Positions 44,368 through 49,232 of a stretch of 64,000 nt of DNA are shown one piece after another. Location: the NCBI RefSeq assembly GCF_000196015.1, contig NC_007974.2:682001-746000 (forward strand), written 5' to 3'. The notes under the pieces were generated by a model. That model saw only the letters and a list, made by a program, of their open reading frames with translations. It was not told the DNA's origin and did not search any database. This DNA comes from Cupriavidus metallidurans CH34 (GTDB lineage Bacteria > Pseudomonadota > Gammaproteobacteria > Burkholderiales > Burkholderiaceae). The translations under genes and the position numbers were made by a program. The first letter of the stretch is position 1; every line of letters begins with the position of its first letter.

Positions 44368-44389
44368 AAGCCCCGCCGGAGCGGGGCTT
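44368..44389 (-). terminator. Rho-independent terminator of the cold-shock gene
   Basis: AAGCCCCGC and GCGGGGCTT form a 9-bp GC-rich stem with a 4-nt loop. Read on the minus strand, it is followed by TCTGCTTTCT. It begins 31 bp after the csp stop. Confidence 0.8.
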
Positions 44390-44420
44390 CCCAGGCAAGA
44401 TAAACTGCCCGGTGATCCAG

Positions 44421-44624
44421 TTAGATAGCCTGGATCTTCGTGGCCTGTTCGCCCTTCTGGCCCATAGCCTTAACGTAGCGAACCTTCTGACCTTCCTTCA
44501 GCGACTTGAAGCCATTGCCTTCAATCGCCGAGAAGTGTGCGAACAGGTCATTGCCGCCTGCGTCCGGCGTGATGAAGCCGAAGCCCTTGGCGTCGTTGAA
44601 CCACTTAACGGTACCGGTTTCCAT
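44421..44624 (-). CDS. Cold-shock protein (CspA family), cut off from its own leader by an IS
   Basis: The 67-residue single cold-shock domain has [18 protein letters not shown] (RNP1 KGFGF) and DLFAHFSAI (RNP2), and binds single-stranded nucleic acid as an RNA chaperone. The gene is intact, but an IS481-family element begins 9 bp upstream of its ATG. Only GATAGACAT of the original upstream sequence remains next to it; the promoter and the GAGG Shine-Dalgarno sequence now lie beyond the IS. The stop of the IS transposase (44629-44631) is 4 nt before the ATG, so csp may be translated by coupling. Whether it is still expressed is open. Confidence 0.93.
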
Positions 44625-44628
44625 ATGT

Positions 44629-45594
44629 CTATCTGTCGTGTCCCGGCTGATTGGTAACACGTCTGTTGAACAGTTCGGGGTGTGATCGCTGCCATTGTTT
44701 CATGGCCTGGATGGGGCTGACATGCCCCAAGGCTTTCTGTGGCAGTTGGTGATTGTACAGCCAGACATACCGCAGGATGGTGGCCTCAAGTTCTTCGCCG
44801 GAATGGAAGTGATGGGTGCGCAGGATGTCGGCGATGCGCCCGTTGAAGCGTTCAACCATGCCGTTGGTCTGCGGGTGTTTTGGGCGGGTCAGGCGATGCT
44901 CAATGCCTAGCTCCTCGCAGAGCTGATCGAACTGATGCCTGCCGGTCGGCGTACGCTCTCCCCGTGTGATGAAGCGATCCGTGAATTCCTTGCCGTTGTC
45001 GGTCAGGATCGTTCGGATACGGAAGGCAGCGGCCTTGTGCAATTCCTTCAGGAAGCGCCGGGCGTTGGTAGCGCTCTTGCTGGCATAGACACGCACGAAC
45101 ACCCAGCGGGTGGCGCGATCAATGGCCACAAACAGGTAACGCCGCGTGGTTTCGTCCGCCATCTGCGGCAGGTACTTCACATCGATGTGGACGAAGCCGG
45201 GCTCGTAGGCCTTGAACGGCTTGGTCCTGGGGCGATCCACGCTCAATGCCTCGCGCGCCGACACTCCATGGCGTTTGAGCATGCGGTGCAAGGCAGCGCG
45301 TGAGACGGTCGGATGGATGAACTCGCGTACGACTGCCAGCAGGTCATCCAGCGAAAGGCCCAGGCTTTTACGCAAGACGAGCACGATGGACTCCTGGGCC
45401 GGCGTCAGCGTGGTTTGCAGTCGATGAGGGGTATGGGAGGCGTCATGAACCGATGCACGCTTCTTCCAGCGAGCGATGGTGGAGACACTCACGCCAAAGC
45501 GCTGGGCCAGAACCCTCATGGGCTCCTTGCTGACCTGGATCTCGGCGCGGATCCTGGGTGTCGTGGTGGCGTTCTTGTGCAGCCTCAGATGCAT
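44629..45594 (-). CDS. IS481-family transposase
   Basis: The 321-residue transposase has an N-terminal helix-turn-helix ([19 protein letters not shown]), the sequence [10 protein letters not shown], and an rve-type catalytic domain with VHIDVKYLP (D), [11 protein letters not shown] (D) and [15 protein letters not shown] (E). I start at ATG 45594 behind GGAG; an in-frame TTG lies within the right inverted repeat. The stop TAG falls in the target duplication (44629-44631), i.e. the last bases of the ORF come from host DNA. This gene now sits between the csp leader and the csp coding region. Confidence 0.94.
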
Positions 45595-45674
45595 CGTTTC
45601 AGCTCCAGCATGACCTCTCGGGCCAAGAGTAAACCACGGCGTGAACCAATTAACCAATCATCAGGGACACGACA
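44634..45674. mobile_element. IS481-family insertion sequence, 1041 bp
   Basis: The ends are inverted repeats: the left TGTCGTGTCCCGGCTGATTG and the inverse of the right TGTCGTGTCCCTGATGATTG differ at three positions over 20. A 6-bp target duplication TCTATC flanks the element (44628-44633 and 45675-45680). One complete transposase gene fills it, on the minus strand like csp. It appears intact. Confidence 0.95.
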
Positions 45675-45778
45675 TCTATCCAACCTCGAATTTCAAATGG
45701 GCGTAATTGCCCGACCAAGCATGTCGCTCACAACGAACCGGAGCAAAACGCTACAGGCCGGCGCACATGCGAGCAGCC

Positions 45779-45806
45779 ATTTTGACTGTTTTTTTCTGGC
45801 TGTCAA
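45779..45806 (-). promoter_or_regulatory. Likely original csp promoter
   Basis: On the minus strand TTGACA (45806 to 45801) and CAAAAT (45784 to 45779) are separated by 16 bp. Between them and the IS481 right end lie about 100 bp that would be a long csp 5' leader, ending in a GAGG Shine-Dalgarno sequence (45685-45688). The IS5 element lies only 13 bp upstream of the -35. This promoter should now transcribe the IS481 transposase before csp. Confidence 0.55.
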
Positions 45807-45823
45807 TCGGACCATGCCCCTAA

Positions 45824-47154
45824 CAGGCTGCTGAAGTACTAGCCGCATAAAAGCGAAGCTTCCCTCTGCAAGGCTGATGGGCTCGCTATTTTTCACAATC
45901 CGGAAGCTGATCGTCACTTCACCGACTTTTTCGTTGATTTGGCGACCGTTTCCGGCCTCATTGCCGCGATTACTGCAACTGCGGACGGATTTGTCCCAGC
46001 GAACGCATGCGCACGAGGTTGTAGGCGGCCATGCTCAGCACAAACATTTGATCGACCTTCTTTAGTCCGCGCACCATCACCTGGCGCATGCGCCCAACGG
46101 TCTTGGCCCATCCAAAGCCTTGTTCAATCAGCTTGCGCTTCTGCTGTGAGATGGCATAACCCTTGGTGCCTGCAATGGCGTCGGGAACGGCCGAGCGGCG
46201 GCCAGAGGTGTTTTGTGCGACGTGCGGCGTCACCTTCAACTCCAGGCAGGCTTGAATGAACTCGTGCGCGTCGTAGCCCTTGTCCGCACCCACGGTGACT
46301 TCCACATTCAGGTCCTCAATCACCTGCCTGGCATCGTTGAGCATGACCTTCGCGGCCTCGCGCTCGGCGTGTCCGTCCGCATTGGTCACCATGGCGCTCA
46401 CCACCAGGCCGTGGCGGTTGTCGCTCAGGGTATGACCCATGTAACGCAGTTCACTGGCGGTTTTGCCCTTGCGGTACAGCTTGGCATCGGGATCGGTTTT
46501 GGACTCGTGCGTCTCGTTGCTGCGCTTTTCACCCTTGAAGTCAGCACCGTCGTTATCGTCTTGGTCGTCGCCATCCTTGCGTACAAAGCTCTTGTGGCCA
46601 GCCCACGCCTTAATCAACGTGCCGTCGACGCTGAAGTGCTCGCCCGACAGCCAGTCCTTCTTCTGCGCGATGGCCAGCACTTCGTTGAAGAAGTCGATCA
46701 CAGCATCGTGCTTGATCAGCCGTTCCCGGTTCTTGCTGAAGACGCTGGGCACCCAGACCACATCATCCATCGCCAGGCCAATGAACCAGCGAAACAGCAA
46801 GTTGTAGTGCGTCTGTTCCATGAGCTGGCGCTCCGACCGGACGCTGTAGAGCACCTGCAGCAGCATGGCCCGCAGCAACTTCTCCGGCGCGATGCTGGGC
46901 CGGCCACCCTTGATATCGGCCTCGTACATTTGCGCGAACAGCCGATCCATCTTCGCCAGCGCCTGGTTCGCCATGGTGCGGATCGCGCGCAGGGGGTGGG
47001 ACTTCGGCACGAAATCTTCCAGCCGCCGCATGGTGAACAAACTTTCGGTGAAGGTGTCAGCGCCGCGCATGAACGTGGGATTGTATGGAGTCCTCAGATT
47101 AACGATTCAGCAAGTCGTCGCGCTGACGTTCGCTGCCGGTATTTCAGCAGCCTG
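45824..47154. mobile_element. IS5-family insertion sequence, 1331 bp
   Basis: The ends CAGGCTGCTGAAGTAC and the inverse of the right end, CAGGCTGCTGAAATAC, are near-perfect inverted repeats. It is flanked by a 4-bp duplication CTAA (45820-45823 and 47155-47158), which fits the YTAR target of IS5-type elements. A single complete transposase gene on the minus strand occupies it. It sits just upstream of the csp promoter, in the former csp/pelA intergenic region. Confidence 0.94.
45970..47070 (-). CDS. IS5-family transposase
   Basis: The 366-residue transposase has the IS5-type N-terminal domain (LRAIRTMANQALAKMDRLFAQMYEADIKGGRPSIAPEKLLRAMLLQVLYSVRSERQLMEQ). Its DDE core shows FSVDGTLIKAW (D), VTVGADKGYDAHEF (D) and KRKLIEQGFGWAKTVGRMRQV (E). 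No break is seen. A charged linker (KDGDDQDDNDGADFKGEKRSNETHE) lies in the middle, an insertion seen in some members. Confidence 0.94.
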   Translation of the reverse strand: MRGADTFTESLFTMRRLEDFVPKSHPLRAIRTMANQALAKMDRLFAQMYEADIKGGRPSIAPEKLLRAMLLQVLYSVRSERQLMEQTHYNLLFRWFIGLAMDDVVWVPSVFSKNRERLIKHDAVIDFFNEVLAIAQKKDWLSGEHFSVDGTLIKAWAGHKSFVRKDGDDQDDNDGADFKGEKRSNETHESKTDPDAKLYRKGKTASELRYMGHTLSDNRHGLVVSAMVTNADGHAEREAAKVMLNDARQVIEDLNVEVTVGADKGYDAHEFIQACLELKVTPHVAQNTSGRRSAVPDAIAGTKGYAISQQKRKLIEQGFGWAKTVGRMRQVMVRGLKKVDQMFVLSMAAYNLVRMRSLGQIRPQLQ

Positions 47155-47158
47155 CTAA

Positions 47159-47756
47159 TGGTGTTTCGGCATACAAACAGCAGATATTAAATTCTTCTAC
47201 ATCCATTCCGGATTTGTCTGACATCAGGGTGCCTTCCACGATGTTATGTCAGTCATTGCGGGCGTGGCGGTACCGGCAGTCGTTACATATTCGTAAGGCA
47301 CGAGTGTGAGATATCACACAGTTGCCCACAGTTGCCATGCGGACAATCACACCGCAATACCTCAAATGGGCCAGATGCCGGAATAAAAATCCTGAGAGGT
47401 ATGGTTATCCCGTATGCCAGAACCGAGAAACTTGTGGTCGAGGCGAGCGTAGTGGCGGCAGACATCTGCATTTTTACCACCCGGTGTAACATCTGCTTAC
47501 CGATTCCCCTGTGGTCAAGGGGCACGCGGGTTGAATCGTGCCAAATGTCGTACCTATGACATGGCTTGTCGGGCACAATTTTTGACAATCTATTTCAAAC
47601 GGATGGCCTAGGATCCACCTGCTCGCAAATTAGGAAAAATCCTATATAAAAGTGCTGCATAGAGCATAATGCAGGCTTAGGCATCGTCCGAGATGCGGGT
47701 CATGCATGCGAGCGGGGCCTGCGCGCCGCCATCGGCAACCGTCATAACAGCAGCGG
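47159..47756. other. Native csp/pelA intergenic remnant, lower GC, no supported gene
   Basis: This 598-bp stretch lies between the IS5 and IS4 elements. Its base composition is visibly less GC-rich than that of the surrounding genes. Before the insertions it separated the divergent csp and pel units. An ORF on the minus strand (47283-47588) lacks coding features. Features seen are a TTGACA at 47582-47587, an inverted repeat TAGGA-AAAA-TCCTA at 47630-47643 and AT-rich TATATAAA just after it; these are candidate pieces of the pel promoter, with no convincing complete promoter. Confidence 0.5.
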
Positions 47757-47766
47757 ACTTTAAGCC

Positions 47767-49221
47767 CAATACTGTTCAGATAGTATTTTTAAAGCCATAA
47801 TCCTCATCCATCGAAGCTTCAATGGATGAGGGTGATGGCCAGAACACGCAAGACGCTGCCGTCGAGAGTTGACGTTGCGCATTTGATCAGCGCCGGGGTG
47901 CTGGCCAGCGTGTGTCCACGGACGTTGATCGAAGAAGTGTTGGCCGAGACCGGCAAGGCCAGCCAGCGGGAGCGGCTGCTGCCCGCGCCGGCAGTGGTGT
48001 ATTACGTGATGGCGCTGGCGCTGTGGCGCGAAGCGCCGCTGGAGGAAGTGCTGCGCGTGGTGTGCGAAGGCCTGCAATGGCTCGGCGGCGGCCACACTGA
48101 GGCGGTGCAGGCCAGCAAGTCCGCGATCTCGCAGGCGCGCAGCCGGCTGGGCCCCGAGGTCATGCGCCAATTGGCCGATCGGGTGCTGCGCCCGCTGGCC
48201 GCGCCGGGGGCGCCAGGGGCGTGGTACCGGGGATTGCGCGTGATGGCCCTGGACGGCAGCTGCATGGACGTGGCCGACGAGGCGGCCAACGCCAAGTTCT
48301 TCGGCTACCCGGGCGCCTCGCGCGGCCAAAGCGCCTTCCCGCAGGCGCGCGTTCTGGGCCTGGTGGAATGCGGCACGCACGCGGTGGTGGCAGCCGGCAT
48401 CGCACCCTACGGCCACAGCGAGCAGGTCATGGCCGCCCAGTTGCTGCCCGCCAAGCTCACGCCCGAGATGCTGGTGCTGGCCGACCGCAACTTCTACGGC
48501 TTCAAGCTCTGGCAGACCGCCTGCGCTACGGGCGCCAAGCTGGCCTGGCGGGTCAAATCCAACCTCAAGCTGCCGGTAGAGCAGATGTTGCCCGATGGCT
48601 CGTACCTGAGCCGCGTGTTCGACAGCGACGACCGCGCGCGGCGCGCAGGGCAAACGGTGCGTGTGATCGACTACGCGCTCGAGGGCTCGGCCACGCCGGC
48701 GCAGGGCAGCTACCGGCTGCTGACCAACCTCCTGGACCCCGATGCGGCGCCGGCCCTGGAGCTGGCCGCGCTGTACCACGAGCGCTGGGAGATCGAGGGG
48801 GTGTTCGATGAGTTCAAGACGCATTTGCGCGCCAACAGCACGGTGCTGCGCAGCAAGACGCCCGAGCTGGTGCAGCAGGAGCTGTGGGGGCTGCTGCTGG
48901 CGCACTTTGCGATTCGCCAGTTGATGGCGCAGGCGGCCTGGGCGCGCGAACTCGATCCGGATCGCCTGAGCTTCATGCACGCCGTGCGCGTGATCAAGCG
49001 CAAGATGCCGCAAGCTGCGGCCGTTTCCCCCTGAGCGTTTGCCTGCCTGGCGCGAGGCCCTGCTGGCCGAGATCGCGCGCGGGCGCTGCGTGAGCAGTCG
49101 TGGGCGCCTGAACCCGCGCGGCGTCAAGCGCAAGATGAGCAACTTCAATGTTCGGCATCGCGGCGCAGCGCTCCATTTGCGGCATCAGCCAGTGCCGGTG
49201 CTTCGTATCTGAACAGTATTT
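47767..49221. mobile_element. IS4-family insertion sequence, 1455 bp, directly before pelA
   Basis: Left end CAATACTGTTCAGAT and the inverse of the right end AAATACTGTTCAGAT are inverted repeats. A perfect 10-bp target duplication ACTTTAAGCC flanks the element (47757-47766 and 49222-49231). The transposase gene lies on the plus strand, pointing at pelA, whose GTG begins only 11 bp after the element. The IS thus separates pelA from its original upstream region. Confidence 0.94.
47826..49212 (+). pseudogene. IS4-family transposase with a frameshift near its C-terminus
   Basis: The in-frame part (47826-49034, 402 residues) has the DDE residues in ALDGSCMDV and VLADRNFYGFKLW, and the IS4 signature YHERWEIEGVFDEFK (Y-x2-R-x3-E-x6-K). 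It stops at TGA 49032-49034, just after a run of five C (49027-49031). If one C is removed the frame continues as ...SPERLPAWREALLAEIARG...VLRI to a stop at 49210-49212, giving about 460 residues. This is either a true single-base insertion or a programmed shift. All catalytic residues lie before the break, so activity is not excluded. Confidence 0.8.
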
Positions 49222-49232
49222 ACTTTAAGCCA

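Follow-up and report, generated by a model that had tools for sequence, protein, structure and literature searches.

The insertion sequence ISRme5 is catalogued in Cupriavidus metallidurans CH34 as copies a, b, c and d, whose transposases are 333, 463, 321 and 321 amino acids in length, respectively, with ISRme5d corresponding to Rmet_4152 (PMC4803752). A promoter directed outward from the 3' end of ISRme5 has been mapped and drives the downstream gene cnrC, and the stop codon of the ISRme5 transposase has been described as being made by the target (PMC4803752). A transposase stop codon located in the duplicated target has also been published for ISLxc2 (PMC2516522). The neighbours of ISRme5d are named ISRme1 (Rmet_4153) and ISRme8 (Rmet_4154), and the region which holds them has been termed an insertion hotspot (PMC2864759). 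ISRme5d, its reporter fusion, the outward promoter of ISRme5 and the target-made stop codon are therefore already published. A link between ISRme5d and the csp gene next to it was not found in the literature searched, a statement which is only as sure as those searches. The term csp has no matches in the main texts of PMC4803752 and PMC2864759, no mention of csp being split by ISRme5d was found in them, and in PMC7563307 the term cold shock occurs once, in a reference title. Searches for literature linking the transposase of an insertion sequence with cold shock, outward transcription and translational coupling found none, nor did searches on IS481 start sites, promoter and read-through in Bordetella pertussis.

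ISRme5 separates csp from its promoter, leader and Shine-Dalgarno sequence

The window, which here means the whole stretch of 64,000 nucleotides of CH34 DNA that was analysed, contains a copy of ISRme5 which separates a csp gene from its own promoter, leader and Shine-Dalgarno sequence. Read along the minus strand, the locus consists of ISRme1 (47154-45824), the csp promoter, a leader of about 100 nt with the sequence GAGG, GATAGA, ISRme5d (45674-44634), a second GATAGA, the trinucleotide CAT and the csp ATG at 44624. The first-pass annotation had placed an IS481 element between the csp control region and the csp ATG, and the coordinates and anatomy it gave are borne out. It was also correct about the 9 bp that lie between the end of the IS and the ATG, the 6-bp duplication TCTATC (GATAGA on the coding strand), and the TTGACA/CAAAAT promoter, leader and GAGG that now lie past the IS in the same direction as the transposase gene. 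The features of the locus are as follows.

45824-47154, minus strand: ISRme1 (IS5 family), which adjoins the csp promoter and is flanked by the duplication TTAG at 45820-45823 and 47155-47158
45801-45806, minus strand: -35 element of the csp promoter, TTGACA, with an N16 spacer to the -10 element
45779-45784, minus strand: -10 element of the csp promoter, CAAAAT (CAGAAT in those relatives with a recognised promoter, 12 of 28)
45675-45772, minus strand: csp leader of about 100 nt, stranded upstream of the IS, with a predicted start near 45772
45699-45712, minus strand: small hairpin of the csp leader, 4 bp, just upstream of the Shine-Dalgarno sequence, with pairs kept in 23 of 23 distinct aligned sequences
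45684-45687, minus strand: former csp Shine-Dalgarno sequence GAGG (AAGG in 27 of 28 relatives, TAGG in one)
45675-45680, minus strand: target duplication GATAGA on the leader side (TCTATC on the plus strand)
44634-45674, minus strand: ISRme5 copy d, IS481 family, 1041 bp, identified from its inverted repeats, the four identical genome copies and the transposase lengths
45653-45674, minus strand: left inverted repeat of ISRme5d, 22 nt
44629-45594, minus strand: ISRme5 transposase, 321 amino acids, with ATG at 45594-45592 and GGAG upstream (start taken from the annotation of the B. multivorans copy)
44634-44655, minus strand: right inverted repeat of ISRme5d, 22 nt
44629-44631, minus strand: transposase stop codon TAG, wholly inside the duplicated target bases
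44628-44633, minus strand: target duplication GATAGA on the csp side (TCTATC on the plus strand)
44421-44624, minus strand: csp coding sequence, 67 amino acids, CSD family, with ATG at 44624-44622

The csp product contains a cold-shock domain (Pfam PF00313, 96.5 bits) and is 100% identical over 66 amino acids to orthologues in four other genomes (G004, G006, G010 and G022). Four csp paralogues are found elsewhere in the CH34 genome. The intergenic region upstream of csp also contains ISRme1 and ISRme8 (45820-49222), the latter an IS4-family element, which brings the number of IS elements there to three.

The empty site is preserved in relatives of CH34. The comparison set held 28 genomes, consisting of the 26 of 35 same-genus genomes with a csp at least 95% identical, together with Cupriavidus sp. 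EM10 and C. campinensis MJ1, two records whose species may already be represented in the 26; the other 9 of the 35, in which csp was absent or more distant, were left out. All 28 have an unbroken csp leader that runs into the ATG with no insert, and in all of them the AGG within the Shine-Dalgarno block precedes the ATG by 10-15 nt (AGGTTG in 27 and AGGTTT in one). The leader-side flank is 90% identical to that of G006 and 83% identical to that of EM10, and blocks of EM10 match the window on both sides of the three IS elements. Among relatives with the same promoter region whose aligned sequence extends to the ISRme1 site, TTAG occurs there once.

TTGACA-N16-CAAAAT is the sole consensus-type promoter in 44380-47400, a count which shuffled sequences also average (1.0). 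A weight-matrix scan along the minus strand gives a score this high about 3 times per 100,000 bases. Of the 28 csp relatives, 12 carry TTGACA-N16-CAGAAT. The pattern was not found within 170 nt in the remaining 16, two of which (G005 and G028) have longer leaders and 14 of which have a different upstream sequence. Control of csp by cold shock is a presumption drawn from the protein family. In alignment A1 the leader hairpin is paired in 100% of cells, with G-U, A-U and G-C at the one pair that varies. No pair of the four shows changes in both partners, and the covariation score is attained in 148 of 500 shuffles. With one varying pair of four, the alignment is no proof of structure. A cspA thermosensor in the leader was considered and rejected, as Rfam gave no accepted match there; the match to the cspA thermosensor (RF01766) fell below the cut-off and was confined to the csp coding region and the IS end. 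A strongly folded leader was likewise rejected, since the leader plus the IS start folded no better than shuffles (z +0.91).

Copies of ISRme5 and the target-supplied stop codon

The element in the window is ISRme5d (Rmet_4152). Its 22-nt terminal repeats are 91% complementary and begin with TGT, and its transposase matches the IS481 family model NCBIfam NF033577 with 269.2 bits against a cut-off of 224. The CH34 genome holds four ISRme5 copies that are 100% identical, and their predicted transposase lengths (333, 463, 321 and 321 amino acids) equal the published values for ISRme5a-d. A 6-bp target duplication is present at ISRme5d (GATAGA) and at L004 (ACTACG); neither L002 nor L003 is flanked by a duplication of its own, but CCTAAT occurs in the outer flank of both. 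The identity of the four copies suggests that the element moved recently, and the insertion of ISRme5d is probably recent. It is mostly an ordinary event in an IS-rich intergenic stretch of the CH34 chromid.

A full copy of ISRme5 was found in none of the 59 other same-genus genomes (60 were searched including CH34, and only the best first-look candidates were scored), one of which has a 32-base match. An ISRme5 copy is given for strain NA4 and none for strains NA1 or H1130, based on draft genomes and a 98% identity cut-off (PMC6210171), which suggests that some strains of the species probably lack the insertion. Strain FDAARGOS_675, whose recorded source is a zinc-factory sedimentation pond and which is perhaps the same strain as CH34, has an identical 13-kb stretch. 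Outside the genus, transposases that are 99-100% identical, two of them partial matches, occur in Lysobacteraceae, Tepidiphilus, Tepidimonas and a Chloroflexota MAG (L039, L040, L041 and L047), the last possibly through a binning error. Their occurrence in distant taxa points to horizontal spread of the element. A copy on a B. multivorans plasmid (L121, NZ_CP090750.1) is 98.8% identical to ISRme5d and is annotated as ISRme14 family where the CH34 papers say ISRme5, which is a naming inconsistency.

ISRme5b and ISRme5c (L003 and L002) are direct repeats that bound L125 (G000 C3 1399922-1417744), with outer flanks that are both CCTAAT and inner flanks that differ, an arrangement as in a 17.8-kb composite transposon. 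Open reading frames of L125, of which 10 of 35 long ones were scanned, include those for HypD, HypF, a CobW/HypB-like protein, HupH, a NiFe hydrogenase and a piece of a GMC oxidoreductase. The hyp/hox cluster has been suggested to have been brought in by ISRme5 copies (PMC2864759), and the matching outer duplication would fit such an import.

The sequence of ISRme5 supplies no stop codon for its transposase, and the frame of two of the four CH34 copies continues into host sequence. At csp, the stop codon had been described as partly built from duplicated host bases and as lying 4 nt before the ATG; the distance is correct, but the TAG lies wholly, not partly, in the duplication. We examined 85 loci, namely the best 80 of 369 relatives, the four CH34 copies and one of three places on the B. 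multivorans plasmid. Nine loci were dropped because the right end was unrecognised or lay beyond the contig, leaving 76, several of which come from one genome and are not independent. In 76 of 76 loci the transposase frame crosses the end of the element after the first base of a codon, and in 69 of them TA occupies target positions 3-4 (NNTANN). The stop codon falls at target positions 3-5 in 45 of the 76 loci, further out in 30 and inside the element in one. A target-made stop codon is thus the commonest state in this IS481 branch. A host-built stop codon as something remarkable and special to the csp site was rejected, being usual in the branch and already published. The word from stop codon to ATG, TAGNCATATG, is found a single time in the window, where 0.06 occurrences would be expected; we give this no weight as the word was chosen after the site was seen. 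With a stop codon that usually comes from the target, the transposase frame in this branch ends at or beyond the host border and may adjoin, or run into, a host gene.

Transcription of the transposase and of csp

The csp promoter had been proposed to drive the transposase, with the csp Shine-Dalgarno sequence pointing into the transposase gene. The direction is as proposed, but the GAGG stands in front of a short open reading frame created by the junction rather than at the transposase start at 45594.

45661-45675, minus strand: junction-made 4-codon open reading frame, ATG TCG TGT CCC TGA, 8 nt after GAGG

The ATG of this reading frame (45675) takes its A from the end of the duplication and its TG from the IS, and the transposase start lies 66 nt beyond its end. 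The published reporter for ISRme5d is a plasmid transcriptional fusion, assayed at 30 C only, that carries a 239-bp fragment starting 148 bp upstream of the left repeat (PMC4803752). Based on coordinates rather than primers, the 5' end of the fragment falls at about 45822, upstream of the csp -35 element. At 30 C the ISRme5d fragment gave less reporter activity than the 91-bp promoter of the element itself; in each of the four ISRme5 copies the flank reduced activity relative to that promoter at this temperature, and ISRme5d was not zinc-inducible (PMC4803752). Since the ISRme5d flank lowers reporter activity and by coordinates holds the csp promoter, these results argue against a boost at 30 C, and the proposed effect of the csp promoter on the transposase is not supported.

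The first-pass annotation had set against its own proposal a csp promoter inside the IS right before 44630. The published outward promoter of ISRme5 comes close to this (PMC4803752), while our scan gave only weak matches at the right end. The best of these scored 2.7 bits, a value reached about once per 100 bases of strand. One match, TTACCA-18-GATAGA, would start transcription near 44621 and another, TTACCA-16-CAGATA, near 44623, at the csp ATG. Given how weak these matches are, the csp junction may lack the outward promoter that operates at cnrC. The best Shine-Dalgarno-like duplex left for csp within 20 nt has an energy of -3.5 kcal/mol, with a GGGA core 16 nt from the ATG. At 400 random places in the window the median is -2.5 kcal/mol and the best quarter starts from -3.8 kcal/mol, and more than one quarter of the places do as well as csp. 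The best duplexes of the 28 relatives range from -3.4 kcal/mol (14 of 28) to -5.4 kcal/mol, with an AGG core 10-15 nt from the ATG. As half of the relatives reach only -3.4 kcal/mol, translation of csp may be less hurt than the layout suggests, and the loss of the csp Shine-Dalgarno sequence is real but modest by this measure.

The explanation that we favour, with a probability of roughly 0.7, is an ordinary, recent insertion of ISRme5d that severed the control of csp, gave the transposase no boost at 30 C and left residual csp expression to arise from within the IS. ISRme5d landed in an IS-rich intergenic stretch and cut csp from its promoter, leader and Shine-Dalgarno sequence, with the target supplying the transposase stop codon as is usual in this branch. 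Going by the published reporter, the csp promoter region brings no rise in transposase expression at 30 C. The remaining csp expression would most likely come from the IS, by transposase read-through and from the outward promoter at the ISRme5 3' end, with a ribosome-binding site that appears no better than background, and the other four csp genes would probably cover for csp.

Alternatively, csp could be silent, having lost its promoter and ribosome-binding site, and be decaying in a genome which tolerates this thanks to the paralogues. The removal of the Shine-Dalgarno sequence to a distance of 1 kb, its replacement at background level, the lack of a strong promoter at the junction and the four other csp genes are all in keeping with silencing, which we regard as possible but hold only tentatively, as the 3' end of ISRme5 is known to promote expression of a gene downstream (PMC4803752) and the duplex of csp in half of the relatives does not surpass that in CH34. 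The coding sequence is also intact and identical to its orthologues, although this may mean only that the insertion is recent. It is less likely that the outward promoter makes a leaderless or nearly leaderless csp message from the ATG. Such a message would agree with the starts near 44621 and 44623 predicted from the right-end matches, with the published outward promoter (PMC4803752) and with the 4.67% of primary starts in CH34 that are leaderless (PMC7563307), but neither match is strong or unusual for the window.

The model of the first-pass annotation, a single transposase-csp message driven by the csp promoter and leader, with csp coupled across the 4-nt gap and with transposase and transposition rising in the cold, is decidedly doubtful. 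The two genes share one direction behind a conserved promoter and leader, a consensus scan found no terminator-like site in 44380-47400, the stop-to-start gap is short, and the published reporter, being limited to 30 C, says nothing on cold. That same reporter has the flank lowering activity at 30 C (PMC4803752), however, and the csp Shine-Dalgarno sequence now serves a 4-codon reading frame that ends 66 nt before the transposase start. The leader also yields no cspA-type thermosensor call, the RF01766 match being sub-threshold and on the csp coding region and IS end, and the folding of leader plus IS start does not exceed that of shuffled sequences (z 0.91). We consider it highly improbable that the csp promoter and leader have captured the IS into one cold-responsive, translationally coupled transposase-Csp message with temperature-dependent transposition at this copy. 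Expression of csp from the IS, or silence of csp, is more likely than a cold-controlled transposase-csp operon.

Comparison with described systems

In a laboratory strain with published reporters, the locus provides a clean natural example of an IS usurping the control region that belongs to a host gene. The E. coli cspA thermosensor leader (PMC9947658; RF01766) likewise belongs to a csp gene with an untranslated leader, and differs from the CH34 csp leader in that the latter has no accepted Rfam match. At cnrC, where ISRme5 and IS1086 lie upstream, an IS also stands in front of a gene start and supplies an outward promoter (PMC4803752). There ISRme5 is 25 bp from the start codon and expression was measured, whereas ISRme5d is 9 bp from the csp start codon. 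ISLxc2/ISLxx4, which are IS481-family elements of Leifsonia xyli, resemble ISRme5d in having the transposase stop codon in a duplicated target, NCTAGN (PMC2516522), while the branch examined here has a looser target, with NNTANN in 69 of 76 loci.
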